Of a stretch of 64,000 nucleotides of DNA, positions 145 to 6,216 are shown piece by piece. Below the pieces are notes generated by a model. It saw only the letters and a list, made by a program, of their open reading frames with translations, was not told the origin of the DNA and searched no databases. Position 1 is the stretch's first letter. Each line of letters opens with the position of its first letter. Origin of the DNA: Clostridia bacterium (GTDB taxonomy: Bacteria; Bacillota; Clostridia; Christensenellales; Aristaeellaceae). The stretch covers positions 1 to 64,000 of the forward strand of contig JAFROK010000019.1 in assembly GCA_017429695.1 (NCBI GenBank), written 5' to 3'. Both the position numbers and the translations under genes were made by a program.

Positions 145-1908
145 ATGAAATACAGGGTTACGGGAAACATTGACGGGGTACGGGACGGGATGCTGGCGCG
201 GCTGGACAGCCTGTTTGAGTACGAACTGGAGGACGGGTCATACCTGCCCCGGGATATGATGAAAATGCTGGCGGACTGCTCCTGCGCCATCAACCGGGAG
301 ATTGCCGTCTATATTACCCGGGACGGGGAAATTGTCAGCGTCGCGATCGGAACGGACTGCGACGTGGAACTGACGGATTACCGGCTGAGGCGGAACGAGA
401 AGCGCCTGAGCTATGTCCGCTGCGTCCATACGCATCCGAACGGGGACGGACGCCTCAGCGACGTGGACCTGAGCGCCCTGAAGATCTTCCGGTATGACGC
501 GATGACTGCCCTCGGCGTAAAGGACGGGGAGCCGACCTTTATCCAGACCGCTTTCCTGGGGGAAAATACGGAAATCCTGATGGATGAACCGGTCCGGTGG
601 TACAAAACACCGGACGCGGAATGGCTGGCCCGGATCGACCAAAGCGATGAGCTGGTCGGCCGGGAGGAAACCCGGGACGTGGACAGCCGGCAGGAAAAAG
701 CGGTGCTCATGGGCATCGAAAGCATGGAATCCCTGGAGGAACTGAAGCGCCTGGCGGAAACCGCCGGGGCGGAGGTGGCTGCCTCCTTCCTGCAGAAGCG
801 GGATAAGCCGGACAGCGCGCTGTTCATCGGGAAGGGCCGTGCGGAGGAACTGAGCCGGGAATGCCAGGCGCTGGAAGCGGACGTGTGCATCTTTGATGAG
901 GAACTGACCGGAATGCAGGTGCGGAACCTGGAGGAAATGCTTCGGATCCGCGTGATTGACCGTACGATGCTGATCCTGGATATCTTTGCCCAGCGGGCGA
1001 CCAGCGCGGAAGGCAAGCTGCAGGTGGAACTGGCGCAGCTGCAGTACCGTTCCGCCCGGCTGATCGGCCAGGGCCTGGTGCTCAGCCGCCTGGCCGGCGG
1101 TATCGGTACCCGGGGCCCCGGTGAAAGCAAACTGGAAATGAACCGGCGCCGGATCCGGATGCGGATGACGGAACTGAAGCGGCGGCTGGACGAGCTGGAA
1201 AAACAGCGGAATGTCCGGCGGAAGAACCGGGAACGCAACGAGATACCGGTGGTGGCCCTGGTCGGTTATACCAATGCCGGAAAATCTACGCTGCTGAATA
1301 CCCTGAGCGGAGCGGATGTCTATGTGCAGGACCAGCTGTTTGCCACGCTGGACGCGGTATCCCGCCGGATGGAGACGGCGGAGAAGACGCCGTACCTGCT
1401 GACGGATACGGTCGGGTTCATCCGGAAACTGCCCCATACGCTGATCAGCGCCTTCCGCTCCACCCTGGACGAAGCGGCGCTGGCGGATGTACTGGTGATC
1501 GTTTCGGACGGCGCCAGCCCGGATATGCTTCAGCAGCATGACACCGTGGAGCAGGTGCTGGAGGAACTGGGCGCAACGGAGCAGAAACGGATTGAAGTCA
1601 TCAACAAGGCGGATGCCTGCGATCCGGATCCCGTTTTCCCCGGCGCGGTAATCATCTCCGCGAAAACCGGCGAAGGCCTGGAAGACCTGAAGGAAGCGAT
1701 TGCCGCGGCCCTGCAGGAATCCTATGTGCCGACATCCTTTGCAATTCCGTTCAGCCGCTACGGGATCCTGAACGAGATCCGCGAAGCCGGTCGGGTGATG
1801 ACCGAAGAGCATACGGCGGAAGGAACAAAGGTGACGGTGATGATTGCCAAAGAGGATACGGAGAGGCTGGTCCGGAAGTACGGAGCGGATATAGTGGTCA
1901 GTGGTTAG
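145..1908 (+). CDS. hflX: GTPase HflX with N-terminal JAMM-like domain
   Basis: HflX is a ribosome-associated GTPase that splits stalled 70S ribosomes under stress. The sequence shows the HflX N-domain (including RGPGESKLE), a glycine-rich linker region and a G domain with P-loop GYTNAGKST near residue 374, DTVGFI switch and NKAD. About 190 extra residues precede this, containing HTHPNGDGRLSDVD (His95, His97, Ser105, Asp108), which matches the HxH-x7-SxxD metal-binding pattern of JAMM/MPN+ proteases. An N-terminal extension of this sort is known in clostridial HflX; its function is not. I chose ATG 145 because GGGGAGG ends 3 bases before it and homologues start there; the frame stays open back to 49. 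The gene ends in TAG, which lies inside a heptad repeat array. Confidence 0.93.
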   Translation: MKYRVTGNIDGVRDGMLARLDSLFEYELEDGSYLPRDMMKMLADCSCAINREIAVYITRDGEIVSVAIGTDCDVELTDYRLRRNEKRLSYVRCVHTHPNGDGRLSDVDLSALKIFRYDAMTALGVKDGEPTFIQTAFLGENTEILMDEPVRWYKTPDAEWLARIDQSDELVGREETRDVDSRQEKAVLMGIESMESLEELKRLAETAGAEVAASFLQKRDKPDSALFIGKGRAEELSRECQALEADVCIFDEELTGMQVRNLEEMLRIRVIDRTMLILDIFAQRATSAEGKLQVELAQLQYRSARLIGQGLVLSRLAGGIGTRGPGESKLEMNRRRIRMRMTELKRRLDELEKQRNVRRKNRERNEIPVVALVGYTNAGKSTLLNTLSGADVYVQDQLFATLDAVSRRMETAEKTPYLLTDTVGFIRKLPHTLISAFRSTLDEAALADVLVIVSDGASPDMLQQHDTVEQVLEELGATEQKRIEVINKADACDPDPVFPGAVIISAKTGEGLEDLKEAIAAALQESYVPTSFAIPFSRYGILNEIREAGRVMTEEHTAEGTKVTVMIAKEDTERLVRKYGADIVVSG

Positions 1909-1976
1909 TGATTAGTGATTAGTGGTCAGGGACTTGGGAGTTGGTGTTTTATCCTGAGACCTGACACCTGAAACCT
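1893..1976. repeat. Heptad repeat array A (12 units)
   Basis: Twelve consecutive 7-base units run from the last codons of hflX to just before the next gene. The first five are AGTGGTC, AGTGGTT, AGTGATT, AGTGATT and AGTGGTC; the last three are GAGACCT, GACACCT and GAAACCT, which on the other strand read AGGTCTC, AGGTGTC, AGGTTTC. The array therefore has two halves in opposite orientation and can fold (GGTCAGGGA against TCCTGAGACC). The hflX TAG stop is part of it: the AG at 1907-1908 begins unit 3. Confidence 0.8.
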
Positions 1977-1996
1977 TTCATCGGGGGTAGACAGGC

Positions 1997-4636
1997 ATGG
2001 GGAAGACGATTGTAGTCGGGCTGGCGGCGCATGTGGACGCCGGCAAGACCACACTGTCCGAATCCATGCTTTTTCTTTCGGGCGCGGTACGCCGCCAGGG
2101 CCGGGTAGACCACGGGGACACATGGCTGGATACGGAAAAAATGGAGAAGGAACGGGGAATTACTATCTTCTCCAAGGAAGCGCGCCTGGCCTGGAACCGG
2201 ACGGAAATCACCCTGATTGATACCCCCGGCCATGCGGATTTTTCCGGGGAAGCGGAGCGGGCGGTCAGTGTAATGGATGTTGCCGTGCTGGTGATCAGCG
2301 CGCCGGAGGGCGTGCAGCCGCATACCCGCGCATTATGGAAGGTGCTTCGTGAAAACCGGGTGCCGGTTCTGCTTTTCCTGAATAAAGCCGATCAGTTCCG
2401 GGGCGATATGGATGCGCTGCTGGCTTCCGTCCGGAAGGAGCTGGCGGAAGGCGTTGTCATGTTCCCGGATCCCGATCCGGAAAAGGTTGCCCTGTGCGAT
2501 GAGCGCTGTCTGGACGCGTTTCTGCGGGAAGGGGAGATTCCGGAACGGATGATCCACGGCCTGGTCGCGGAGCGGCGGCTGTTCCCGTGCTTTGCCGGGG
2601 CGGCACTGAAGAATGAAGGTGTGGCAGCGCTGCTGGATTTCCTTGCCGGGCTGGACGTGAAAAAGGATTATCCGGCGGAGTTCGGCGCAAGGGTATACAA
2701 GGTGGCCCGGGACGCAAGGGGCGCCCGGCTGGCCTTTATGAAAATTACCGGCGGTGTGTTGAAGGCGCGGGACCTGCTGACGCTGAAGGATCCGGAGGGA
2801 GAAACGCTCTGGGCGGAGAAGGCGGCGGAAATCCGCCTGTATTCCGGCGCGCGTTTCACGCCTGTTCCGGAAGCGGCGGCCGGACAGGTCTGCTGCGTGC
2901 TGGGGCTCAGCAAGGCGGCACCGGGGGACAGCATCGGATCGGATGAAGGAACGCCCGCAAGGCTCATGCGGCCCTGCTATGCCTGCCGGCTGGTGACCGG
3001 GCAGGGAACGGACCTGCATTATGTCCTGGACTGCCTGCGGGCCCTGGAGGAAGAAGAACCCCTGATTCAGGTGGAATATATCGAGGCGCGGCGGGAGATC
3101 CGTGTTCATTCCATGGGGGACGTGTACCTGGAAGTTCTCCGGCAGCAGCTGAAGGACCGCTTCGGAATTGACGCGTCTTTTGCGGACAGTTCGGTGCTGT
3201 ACCGGGAGACGATTGAGGCGCCGGTGGAAGGCGTCGGGCATTATGAGCCCCTGCGCCACTACGCGGAGGTGCACCTGCTGCTGAGTCCGCTGCCGCGGGG
3301 CAGCGGCATGCAGTTCGACTCCGCGGTGCATGTGGACGACCTGGCGCTGAACTGGCAGCGGCTGATCATGACCCATCTCCGGGAAAAACGGCATATCGGC
3401 GTACTGACCGGGGCCCCCCTGACCGATATGCGCATTACGCTGGTGGCCGGGAAGGCGCACCTGAAGCATACGGAGGGCGGTGATTTTCGCCAGGCCACCT
3501 ATCGCGCGGTGCGCCAGGGGCTGATGAAGGCAAAGTCGATCCTGTTGGAACCCTGGATGCGGCTGGAAATCACCGTGCCGGAGGAGCATATCGGCCGGGT
3601 GATGAGCGACCTGACTGCTATGGGCGGGCGGTTCGACGCCCCGGAGGATGTGGGAGGCGGCCTGCAGCGGCTGTGCGGCACGGCATCGGCCGGCGCCTGC
3701 GGTACCTACGGTCGGGATGTCAGCGTGTTCACAAAGGGCAGGGGCAGCTTTTCAGCGGAACTGCTGGACTGGGAACCCTGCGCCGATCCGGAAAAAGTGA
3801 TTGCGGAGAAGGGGTACGATCCGCTCCGGGACACCTGGAACCCGGCGGAATCGGTATTCTGCTCCCACGGAGCCGGGCATCCCGTTCCCTGGAACGAGGT
3901 CGAACAGTATATGCACCTGCCGATGCTTTCGGATATCGAAAACCGGATCCGGAAGGAATCATCCGCAGGCAGTGCCGGCGGCGCCGCAGCAGCCTATCAC
4001 GGGACCCGGGAAGAGGACCAGGCACTGCAGCGGATCTTTGAAAAAACCTACGGTCCTGTCAAGGCGCGCCAGCTGATGTCACCGCCTGCGGAAACACAGA
4101 AAGCCGCGGGTCCGGCATCGGTGAAACCGGTATCTCCCGCGGAGGAAATCCTGCTGATTGACGGGTATAACGTGCTGAATGCCTGGGAGGACTGGAAACC
4201 CTTCCTGGAAGATGAAAACCTGGAAGGTGCCCGGTATGCCCTGATGGATTTGATGTGCAATTACGCCGGGGCTACCGGCAAGAAAGTGATCGTTGTTTTC
4301 GACGCATACAAAGTGCCGGGAAACCCCGGCACGGCGGAAAAATATCATAATATTTTTGTGATTTATACCCGGGAATCCCAGACGGCGGATGCCTTTATCG
4401 AACAGACGACCTATATCGCCCGGGGCGCCGCTGTACGGGTGGTGACATCCGACCGGCCGGAGCAGCTGATCGCTTCCGGCCATGCAGCCATGCGCACCTC
4501 CGCCCGGGAATTCCGGGAGGAAGTCAACAAAGTCCGCGGGGGAATCGCGGCCTTCCTGTCTCAGAACAACCGCCTCCGGCCGGACCGGTCCATTGAAAAA
4601 GCCTATAAGGAAGCGTGGATGAAGAAACACTCTTAA
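1997..4636 (+). CDS. TetM/EF-G-like ribosomal GTPase fused to a Rae1/YacP-type NYN ribonuclease
   Basis: Residues 1-650 or so follow ribosomal-protection proteins (TetM/TetO, EF-G fold): P-loop AHVDAGKTTL at about 11-20, RGITIFSKEA switch, DTPGHADF, NKAD, then domains II-V. A hydrophilic linker of about 60 residues leads to a C-terminal NYN domain (about 717-850) that aligns along its length with Bacillus Rae1/YacP, the endoribonuclease that cleaves mRNA in the ribosomal A site: LLIDGYNV (Asp722), VIVVFDAYKV, TADAFIE (Asp798) and VVTSD. Asp722 and Asp798 correspond to the Rae1 catalytic pair. It lies 88 bp after hflX in the same direction. The Shine-Dalgarno is weak (GGGGGTAG). Its stop overlaps that of the convergent MFS gene. 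Substrate and drug-resistance role are unknown; tetracycline resistance should not be assumed. Confidence 0.88.
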   Translation: MGKTIVVGLAAHVDAGKTTLSESMLFLSGAVRRQGRVDHGDTWLDTEKMEKERGITIFSKEARLAWNRTEITLIDTPGHADFSGEAERAVSVMDVAVLVISAPEGVQPHTRALWKVLRENRVPVLLFLNKADQFRGDMDALLASVRKELAEGVVMFPDPDPEKVALCDERCLDAFLREGEIPERMIHGLVAERRLFPCFAGAALKNEGVAALLDFLAGLDVKKDYPAEFGARVYKVARDARGARLAFMKITGGVLKARDLLTLKDPEGETLWAEKAAEIRLYSGARFTPVPEAAAGQVCCVLGLSKAAPGDSIGSDEGTPARLMRPCYACRLVTGQGTDLHYVLDCLRALEEEEPLIQVEYIEARREIRVHSMGDVYLEVLRQQLKDRFGIDASFADSSVLYRETIEAPVEGVGHYEPLRHYAEVHLLLSPLPRGSGMQFDSAVHVDDLALNWQRLIMTHLREKRHIGVLTGAPLTDMRITLVAGKAHLKHTEGGDFRQATYRAVRQGLMKAKSILLEPWMRLEITVPEEHIGRVMSDLTAMGGRFDAPEDVGGGLQRLCGTASAGACGTYGRDVSVFTKGRGSFSAELLDWEPCADPEKVIAEKGYDPLRDTWNPAESVFCSHGAGHPVPWNEVEQYMHLPMLSDIENRIRKESSAGSAGGAAAAYHGTREEDQALQRIFEKTYGPVKARQLMSPPAETQKAAGPASVKPVSPAEEILLIDGYNVLNAWEDWKPFLEDENLEGARYALMDLMCNYAGATGKKVIVVFDAYKVPGNPGTAEKYHNIFVIYTRESQTADAFIEQTTYIARGAAVRVVTSDRPEQLIASGHAAMRTSAREFREEVNKVRGGIAAFLSQNNRLRPDRSIEKAYKEAWMKKHS

Positions 4637-6216
4637 TCCCCGACATCAAAGGCTTCCAGCTTTGTTTTCGCGGGGATCGGTTTGCTGTCGCCGTGGCGGA
4701 CGAAGAGCATGGTGACGGCGGACAGGGCGACAAAGACCGCGGCGTAGGGGAAAAGGGGATACATATTGCCGGCTTTGTCCATCAGCAGGCCGGAAAGATA
4801 CGGCGTGACAGTCTGGGCGGCCATGCTGGCGGTGTAGTAGAAGCCGGTGTAGCGGCCCACGTCACTGCCCCGGGAAAGCTCCACGACCATCGGGAAGCTG
4901 TTGACGTTGATCGTGGCCCAGCCGATGCCGGCCAGCGCGAACAGGATGTTCATCAGCAGGGCGGAACTGTTCTGGCGCAGGGAGGAGGCAATGGCGAAGG
5001 AGCCCGCGAGCAGGACGATGCCGATCAGGATCGTCTTTTTCCGGCCGATTTTGCTGGCCAGCATGCCGACCGGGATAAAGGCGATCAGCGCGGTGACCTG
5101 GGCGATGATCAGCGTCGTGTTATAATCCCGGGCAAGGACCTGGGTGGCATAGACGGAATACTTGGATGTGACCGCGTTATAACCCATGAACCAGAGAACC
5201 ACGGATGCCAGGATCAGGAGGAGGGAACGGCGCTCCGCGGAGGACAGCTTCCGGGAATCGGAACTGTCGCTCTCTTCGCCGTCATCGATGCCGTATTTCC
5301 GGCTCTCCGCCTCCATTTCTTTCACAAAACGGGGTTCATCCACCTTCAGGCGGAACACCAGCAAACATACCAGCATGATGCCCGCCACGATGGCAAAGAA
5401 GGTGGTGTAGCTCATCAGAGAATTCTTTACGGCACCGGTGGAGAAAACGATCCCCAGCACCAGCACCAGAGCGCCGCCGAGGGTTCCCATCAGGTTGATG
5501 ATGGCGTTGGCCTTGCTGCGCAGCGGTTTGATGGTGACATCCGGCATCAGCGCCACGGCGGGGGAGCGGAAGGTGGCCATGGCAATCAGCAGCAGGAGCA
5601 GCACTGCGATAAACAGGATCAGCGTTTTCGGATTGTTGTGTGTGACCCGCTGGGCGTAGTGCTGGCGGGCGGGAACGACATAGTTGGTATAGTCTTTGTT
5701 CGTTTCCATTTTTTTGGTTTCGGCATTTTCTACCTGGGATTTGATTTCAGTGAAGGCTGTTTTGTCGGGGAATTTCTCTGCCAGGATAAATTCCTGCTCC
5801 CCTGTTACCGGATCGGGATCCGGCATCAGGAGCTTTTCATCTTTCTCCGCATCGTAGAGGCGCTCCAGGGCGGCTGGATCGTCGATGGCGGAGACGTCGG
5901 AAATATTCTTCAGCTGCATATTGTCCACAAAGGACAGGGCAACCAGGAGAATGACTGCCGCGATGGTGCCGATCATGATGAACGGGGTGCGGCGGCCGCT
6001 TTTTCGGAAATGTTTATCGGAGATCGCGCCGAACAACGGCAGCATGAACAGCGCCAGTATATTGTCCAGCGCCATGATGATACCGGAATTTGCCTGGTTC
6101 ATGCCGTATTTATCGGTCAGGATTTTCGGAATGATTGTGTCGTAGGCCTGCCAGAAAGTGCAGATCAGGAAGAAGGCAAAGCCGACATAGACCGTACGTT
6201 TGTAGTTCAGTTTCAT
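4633..6216 (-). CDS. MFS transporter (sugar/GPH-like), long extracellular insert
   Basis: A 527-residue major facilitator permease with about 12 hydrophobic segments. The N-terminal helix region (FWQAYDTIIPKILTDKYG) and GAISDKHFRKSGRR between helices 2 and 3 resemble the SLC45/sucrose-like and GPH branch, so a sugar or glycoside substrate is a reasonable guess but not shown. Residues about 98-197 form an acidic, soluble insert between helices 3 and 4, much longer than usual. A second acidic loop of about 40 residues separates the two halves. GGAGGAGC lies just upstream of the start. The TAA stop overlaps the TAA of the convergent GTPase gene through a shared TTAA. Confidence 0.85.
   Translation of the reverse strand: MKLNYKRTVYVGFAFFLICTFWQAYDTIIPKILTDKYGMNQANSGIIMALDNILALFMLPLFGAISDKHFRKSGRRTPFIMIGTIAAVILLVALSFVDNMQLKNISDVSAIDDPAALERLYDAEKDEKLLMPDPDPVTGEQEFILAEKFPDKTAFTEIKSQVENAETKKMETNKDYTNYVVPARQHYAQRVTHNNPKTLILFIAVLLLLLIAMATFRSPAVALMPDVTIKPLRSKANAIINLMGTLGGALVLVLGIVFSTGAVKNSLMSYTTFFAIVAGIMLVCLLVFRLKVDEPRFVKEMEAESRKYGIDDGEESDSSDSRKLSSAERRSLLLILASVVLWFMGYNAVTSKYSVYATQVLARDYNTTLIIAQVTALIAFIPVGMLASKIGRKKTILIGIVLLAGSFAIASSLRQNSSALLMNILFALAGIGWATINVNSFPMVVELSRGSDVGRYTGFYYTASMAAQTVTPYLSGLLMDKAGNMYPLFPYAAVFVALSAVTMLFVRHGDSKPIPAKTKLEAFDVGD

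Follow-up and report, generated by a model that had tools for sequence, protein, structure and literature searches.

Several enzymes act at the ribosome on or around mRNA, among them the collision factors SmrB and MutS2 and, as far as the accessible accounts describe them, the A-site nucleases of the RelE type. To our knowledge, all of these have other folds than the protein considered here and carry no translation GTPase in the same chain. The closest described nuclease is Rae1 (YacP) of Bacillus subtilis, presented in the available accounts as an endoribonuclease that cuts mRNA in the ribosomal A site; we know of no settled answer to how Rae1 reaches particular ribosomes. YacP-like NYN domains have also been reported on 'Tet' proteins of ten Clostridiales species, for which the available passages of the report suggest an RNase-based resistance (Atkinson 2015, PMC4342817). 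Here we analyse a gene of the same architecture at positions 1997..4636 of a 64,000-nucleotide stretch of DNA, hereafter the window, from a Clostridia bacterium of the family Aristaeellaceae (GenBank assembly GCA_017429695.1, contig JAFROK010000019.1, positions 1 to 64,000). Its product joins a GTPase of the Tet/EF-G family to a Rae1-type nuclease domain. The reading that we favour, with even confidence and on sequence comparison, is that the fusion would be the lineage's housekeeping Rae1, carried to ribosomes by a translation-type GTPase.

Judged from its description, the clostridial family of 2015 is very probably the same as ours. The sequence-only reading of this DNA knew of no functional description of such fusions, but their architecture was already in print in 2015. 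The passages available from that report concern ten species and the resistance idea; the present analysis finds the fusion in 102 of 293 genomes of the class, mostly as the sole NYN_YacP match, with a GTPase lying outside the clade of TetM, TetS and OtrA. Within the open-access literature searched, the fusion is described only in PMC4342817 and no functional study of it was found, although Condon 2018, on Rae1 distribution, may mention it. As far as we have seen, the present analysis adds how widespread the fusion is, its standing in for free Rae1, the results from the two trees, the distance of the GTPase from Tet resistance proteins, the motif within the linker and the neighbourhood of ylmH.

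Architecture of the fusion protein

Conservation was read from an alignment of fusion open reading frames (ORFs) of 820-930 aa, which covers 106 of 121 fusion loci (104 distinct rows). The features of the gene are as follows.

1997..4636, + strand: fusion gene, ATG start, 879 aa; Tet/EF-G-family GTPase, tail, linker and NYN_YacP (Rae1-type) nuclease
1997..3787, + strand (residues 1-597): GTPase in EF-G domain order, with the motifs AHVDAGKTT, T56, DTPGH and NKxD
2231..2233, + strand: H79, the His of DTPGH, kept in 106/106 fusions
3458..3460, + strand: H488, in loop III of domain IV, at the alignment position of the EF-G loop His and of TetM Tyr507, kept in 105/106 fusions and 26/27 unfused rows
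3788..3931, + strand (residues 598-645): C-terminal tail, conserved in the alignment
3932..4144, + strand (residues 646-716): linker, poorly conserved, mean 21.6% identity to the window
4022..4054, + strand (residues 676-686): motif within the linker; I680 in 102/106, T684 in 84/106, G686 in 88/106
4145..4633, + strand (residues 717-879): NYN_YacP/Rae1-type nuclease domain, from Pfam and structure matches
4160..4162, + strand: D722 (Rae1 D7), kept in 106/106 fusions
4301..4303, + strand: D769, kept in 106/106 fusions
4388..4390, + strand: D798 (Rae1 D81), kept in 106/106 fusions
4451..4453, + strand: D819, kept in 105/106 fusions

Profile and structure searches confirm the C-terminal half as a predicted nuclease of the Rae1/YacP NYN type. 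Over the whole protein, NYN_YacP (PF05991) matches residues 719-860 with E 1.6e-41 and 142.5 bits, against a gathering cut-off of 24.6. When the C-terminal piece is scanned alone, the same family scores E 5.5e-43 and the sole other family listed reaches E 0.08, with no competing PIN/NYN family. The closest solved structures are those of B. subtilis YacP/Rae1 (5mq8 and 5mq9, E 4e-22), the next one standing at E 0.46. In this alignment Rae1 D7 and D81, which lie 74 residues apart, fall on window D722 and D798, the two residues named beforehand as the catalytic pair; all four Asp are kept also in 57/57 stand-alone NYN rows, which are the best-scoring loci and no random draw. Both the identity of the domain and the conservation of its Asp in homologues thus came out as predicted. 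The further statement that the domain aligns with Rae1 end to end stood only in part: the match to Rae1 is real, but it spans Rae1 residues 2-135 in the structure alignment and 144 of the 166 positions of the Pfam family, of which other fusions reach up to 166. The likeness to Rae1 lies in the NYN domain with its Asp, while the B. subtilis protein is, in the accounts available, free and encoded beside yacO/rlmB, and that of the window is tethered to a GTPase and poorly matched in its last part.

The N-terminal half was expected to be a ribosome-type GTPase, and the Pfam domains GTP_EFTU (residues 4-216, E 2.4e-49), EFG_IV (399-513) and EFG_C (516-597) occur in the order of EF-G. T56, D75, H79 and K130 are kept in 106/106 fusions, and the P-loop K17 in 105/106 (one gap). 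The His of DTPGH would act in GTP hydrolysis, as it does in EF-G and EF-Tu. Across the 106 fusions, mean identity to the window reaches 56% in the tail, 51% in the GTPase and 46% in the NYN domain, and drops to 22% in the linker. Given that the active-site residues are kept across the fusions, both enzyme halves look used. The tail is common to fused and unfused members of the GTPase clade and was not seen in the TetM, TetS, OtrA or EF-G rows; unfused GTPases stop before the linker motif.

Relation of the GTPase to TetM and EF-G

The clade that includes the GTPase half neighbours the tetracycline ribosomal-protection proteins; it keeps the GTPase motifs, carries a His where EF-G has one in domain IV, and has its own conserved tail. 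It resembles TetM, TetO and TetS in domain order and GTPase motifs, and a TetM structure is among its solved-structure matches (E 3e-66). Nevertheless, its identification as TetM-like in the narrower sense does not hold. Identity to plasmid TetM is about 28%, as against 42-43% to an unfused Ligilactobacillus salivarius protein, and the window scores 368 bits with the curated profile tet_protect (NF012153), below its cut-off of 775. Other clade members (L303, L294, L299, L278, L150 and L113) score 381 to 456 bits, a sister row (L178) 457, and a TetM control (L313) 880. The window is likewise below threshold for EF-G (TIGR00484, 242 bits against a cut-off of 659) and falls outside the EF-G row in the tree; its likeness to EF-G lies in the domain order, the GTPase motifs, the loop-III His and the best score for domains IV-V, these domains plus the tail giving 83 bits with EF-G versus 54 with TetM.

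According to the available text of Atkinson 2015 (PMC4342817), Tet proteins use their domain-IV loops to dislodge tetracycline. Loop III of the window reads GKAHLKHTEGGDFR, unlike the TetM and EF-G loops, and shares with TetM only the letters DF(R) at its end; one locus (L241) was excluded from the loop-III counts. Membership of TetM was hence rejected on the low identity, the curated cut-off, the separate clade and the different loop letters. A mobile resistance gene was also considered and rejected: of the 1376 plasmid records that match, two alone cover at least 80% of the fusion, and both are typed non-mobilizable.

RefSeq labels on the relatives are mixed, between TetM/TetW/TetO/TetS family and translation factor GTPase family protein. 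An L. salivarius plasmid carries, two genes from rpsN, an unfused member of the clade (L150, 3998-5917) that is annotated as a TetM/TetW/TetO/TetS resistance protein, which is probably a misnomer. The sister of the clade (98 in the tree, long branch; L178 of genome G622, 1411-3417) is a 668-aa GTPase without the conserved tail, and possibly represents a neighbouring family.

Distribution across genomes

In its own genome (3.03 Mb, 88% complete), the fusion is the one NYN_YacP match. Within the genus, 40/45 genomes have a match, 37 of the 40 in frames of at least 880 aa; the exceptions are three shorter frames (G034, G036 and G006), and a further genome (G044) has a second, partial match. Among genus genomes at least 90% complete and at most 5% contaminated, the match is present in 13/13. 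The class is taken to be Clostridia from named relatives, one of which (L215) has the same fusion as a genome of the genus (L095).

In a sample of 293 genomes of the class, NYN_YacP is found in 193, the fusion in 102 (about a third) and the GTPase unfused in 22, and no genome was seen with fused and unfused GTPase together (listings read by eye). The GTPase clade was delimited with a profile of residues 400-645, its members scoring at least 266 bits, fragments apart, and other GTPases at most 188, a gap in score that lies within the listings read. Five truncated or split fusions (G102, G181, G084, G185 and G216) are counted within the 102, and one genome (G228) was scored as unfused although its frame has 293 aa only. 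Four of the 102 genomes (G153, G203, G232 and G297) have another NYN_YacP match beside the fusion. Since the fusion is the sole match in the other 98, it seems to take the place of stand-alone rae1 in most genomes that carry it. By subtraction (193 - 102), 91 of 191 class genomes lacking the fusion have a NYN match (Fisher p 1e-16, kinship ignored). A sample of 299 genomes of the phylum, which shares six fused genomes with that of the class, holds 20 fusions, each the sole NYN match, and 5 unfused GTPases (likewise read by eye). The expectation that the fusion would recur in related genomes was therefore well founded, and among related gut bacteria it is widespread.

Outside the genus, NYN_YacP is absent from the 18 class-sample genomes of the same order (one shares the family, the other 17 the order), and none of these is among the matches of the GTPase-clade profile either. 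Two of the 18 are single-contig genomes, of 2.6 and 3.0 Mb. Given this missing match, the fusion may have entered the genus by transfer or been lost from the rest of the order.

Trees of the two halves

The GTPase tree (72 rows, quick IQ-TREE) groups 63 rows (36 fused, 27 unfused) as one clade (96), with TetM, TetS and OtrA on a separate branch (99) and the EF-G row outside the 63-row clade. For this tree L241, which ends in NYN letters after a break, was relabelled as fused. All 36 fused rows lie in one clade (100) together with two unfused rows. The NYN tree holds 89 domains (32 fused, 57 stand-alone), and the approximately unbiased (AU) test does not reject a single clade of fused rows (p 0.7). 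Both trees can thus accommodate one fusion event for the two halves but do not prove it.

Gene neighbourhood

Neighbours were counted at 121 fusion loci (119 distinct), 101 of them with at least 1.5 kb upstream. The flanking genes in the window are as follows.

145..1908, + strand: hflX; the ORF opens at 49, and the ATG at 145 has GGGGAGG before it and coincides with the start of an 84%-identical HflX (L102)
4633..6216, - strand: convergent 527-aa ORF, an MFS-type (major facilitator superfamily) transporter by eye, whose 3' end overlaps the fusion stop codon

The gene lies directly after hflX, as had been noted: HflX scores 448.9 bits with TIGR03156 (cut-off 216.75), the gap from its end at 1908 to the fusion start is 88 bp, and no terminator-like site was found on the + strand of this gap. 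Short direct repeats (TTAGTGATTAGTGATTAGTGG) occupy window positions 1898-1930, between the two genes. It had also been proposed that the two genes form a two-part rescue system. However, hflX is not a conserved partner, because it lies within 5 kb (or the available flank) of the fusion at only 4/121 loci: the window, L102 and two Lachnospiraceae contigs (L224 and L231) with an opposite-strand ORF between the genes. Within the genus the linkage is seen at 2/21 loci, and at 0/25 loci of the first set from other genera. As a standing partner, hflX was thus rejected.

The HflX of the window has an N-terminal extension of about 190 aa (145-720) with HTHPNGDGRLSDVD, which resembles a JAB/JAMM metal-site motif; the Pfam match to Prok-JAB, at E 0.068, is below the cut-off. 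The L102 HflX also has the extension (Prok-JAB E 0.085), and those of L224 and L231 are shorter (408 aa).

At 9/121 loci (L222, L234, L237, L239, L240, L245, L252, L265 and L291), ylmH overlaps the 3' end of the fusion on the same strand, beginning 10-31 bp before the fusion ends; at 2/121 further loci it lies divergently upstream. YlmH_RBD was over its cut-off in 5/5 scanned ylmH neighbours. YlmH is, in the available text of PMC11317155, a factor of ribosome-associated quality control (RQC). The overlap suggests that, in one lineage, translation of the fusion is coupled to that of an RQC factor, and the sporadic hflX and ylmH contexts hint at ribosome rescue. The genome of the window has SmpB and YlmH genes; its ylmH (G000:C15:71003-71194) shares the window's contig, some 66 kb downstream from the fusion, which is probably chance.

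Stand-alone NYN copies sit after an rlmB-type rRNA methylase gene (4/4 scanned). An rlmB-type gene precedes the second copy of a fused genome (L138 of G297). Among 20 unfused-GTPase loci there was no recurrent function-indicating neighbour, the most widespread being an ABC-transporter-like (ATP-binding cassette) ORF by eye, at 4 loci.

Discussion

How a nuclease carried to ribosomes in this way would work can be sketched from its parts; ribosome binding, the order of events, mRNA cleavage and the role in rescue are all inferred. The EF-G-like body and the Rae1 domain would compete for one A site, so that one half would have to follow the other. The GTP-bound fusion would bind a ribosome whose A site no tRNA serves, and GTP hydrolysis would release or withdraw the EF-G-like body. 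The NYN domain, on a tether of about 70 residues, could then enter the A site and cut the mRNA as Rae1 does, and the cut ribosome would pass to transfer-messenger RNA (tmRNA)-SmpB or to RQC. We offer only tentatively this full picture of a GTP-driven rescue nuclease, in which the body would sense the blocked A site, clear it and pass the exposed codon on to the tethered Rae1 domain.

Plain co-localisation of two independent activities ranks close behind this sequential model, and we hold it with clearly more doubt than the favoured reading. The chain would then combine a general elongation or anti-stalling GTPase with a Rae1 that decays certain mRNAs, sharing a location and no coupled cycle. 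B. subtilis Rae1 is reportedly a free protein, the linker is poorly conserved (mean identity 21.6%), the GTPase occurs alone in 22/293 class genomes, 7 of them lacking a NYN match, and two unfused rows sit inside the fused clade, all of which would suit independent halves. The linker motif, however, is kept (I680 in 102/106), and no class genome is listed with both forms of the GTPase.

Two further readings are less probable. Processing of rRNA or tRNA, or ribosome assembly, with the GTPase checking new subunits and the NYN domain trimming RNA, would accord with the rlmB-type gene before all four scanned stand-alone copies, and was first proposed for NYN proteins by Anantharaman and Aravind 2006, as cited in the available text of PMC4342817. 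We consider it unlikely, as characterised Rae1 is described, in the accounts seen, as acting on A-site mRNA, and the window gene adjoins hflX, not rlmB. Resistance, in which the GTPase removes a tetracycline-type A-site antibiotic and the nuclease adds an RNase-based mechanism, draws on the family resemblance to TetM, on the RefSeq names of some members and on the published suggestion in the accessible part of PMC4342817. It seems to us the least probable of these readings: a resistance role is unlikely because the GTPase stands apart from TetM/TetS/OtrA, scores far below the resistance cut-off (368 versus 775 bits, TetM control 880) and has other loop-III letters, including the His at the EF-G position. 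Its domains IV-V and tail are also nearer to EF-G than to TetM (83 versus 54 bits), and the gene is present in 40/45 genomes of the genus.

For the favoured reading, that of a housekeeping Rae1 carried by a translation-type GTPase, several observations count on the other side. The window resembles Rae1 poorly past profile position 144, and N129 of NKxD is kept in just 93/106 fusions. The GTPase tree was built quickly and carries warnings for the long OtrA and L178 branches and for odd composition in many rows, and the free NYN tree puts one stand-alone row among the 32 fused rows. Loss of the nuclease after transfer is the simplest account of the two unfused members of the fused clade, which come from Bifidobacterium polysaccharolyticum (L278) and L. 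salivarius (L150). As these two rows lack the domain and 7/22 unfused-GTPase class genomes have no NYN match, the GTPase would have work of its own. Genomes with the unfused GTPase have a NYN match in 15/22 cases, versus 76/169 of those with no GTPase (p 0.044, kinship ignored), which is weak support for a partnership. Finally, several of the nine ylmH loci share further neighbours, and may therefore be one lineage.

That about a third of the sampled class genomes have their Rae1 joined to a translation-type GTPase points to a recruiter, and the question of how Rae1 is recruited becomes testable with one purified protein and two or three loss-of-function mutants. The results also suggest that some chromosomal and plasmid genes recorded as TetM-family resistance proteins are misnamed. 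If the proposed cycle is true, the fusion would act as a translational GTPase that ends in mRNA cleavage, and would be a main entry into tmRNA or RQC rescue in these bacteria, replacing free Rae1.

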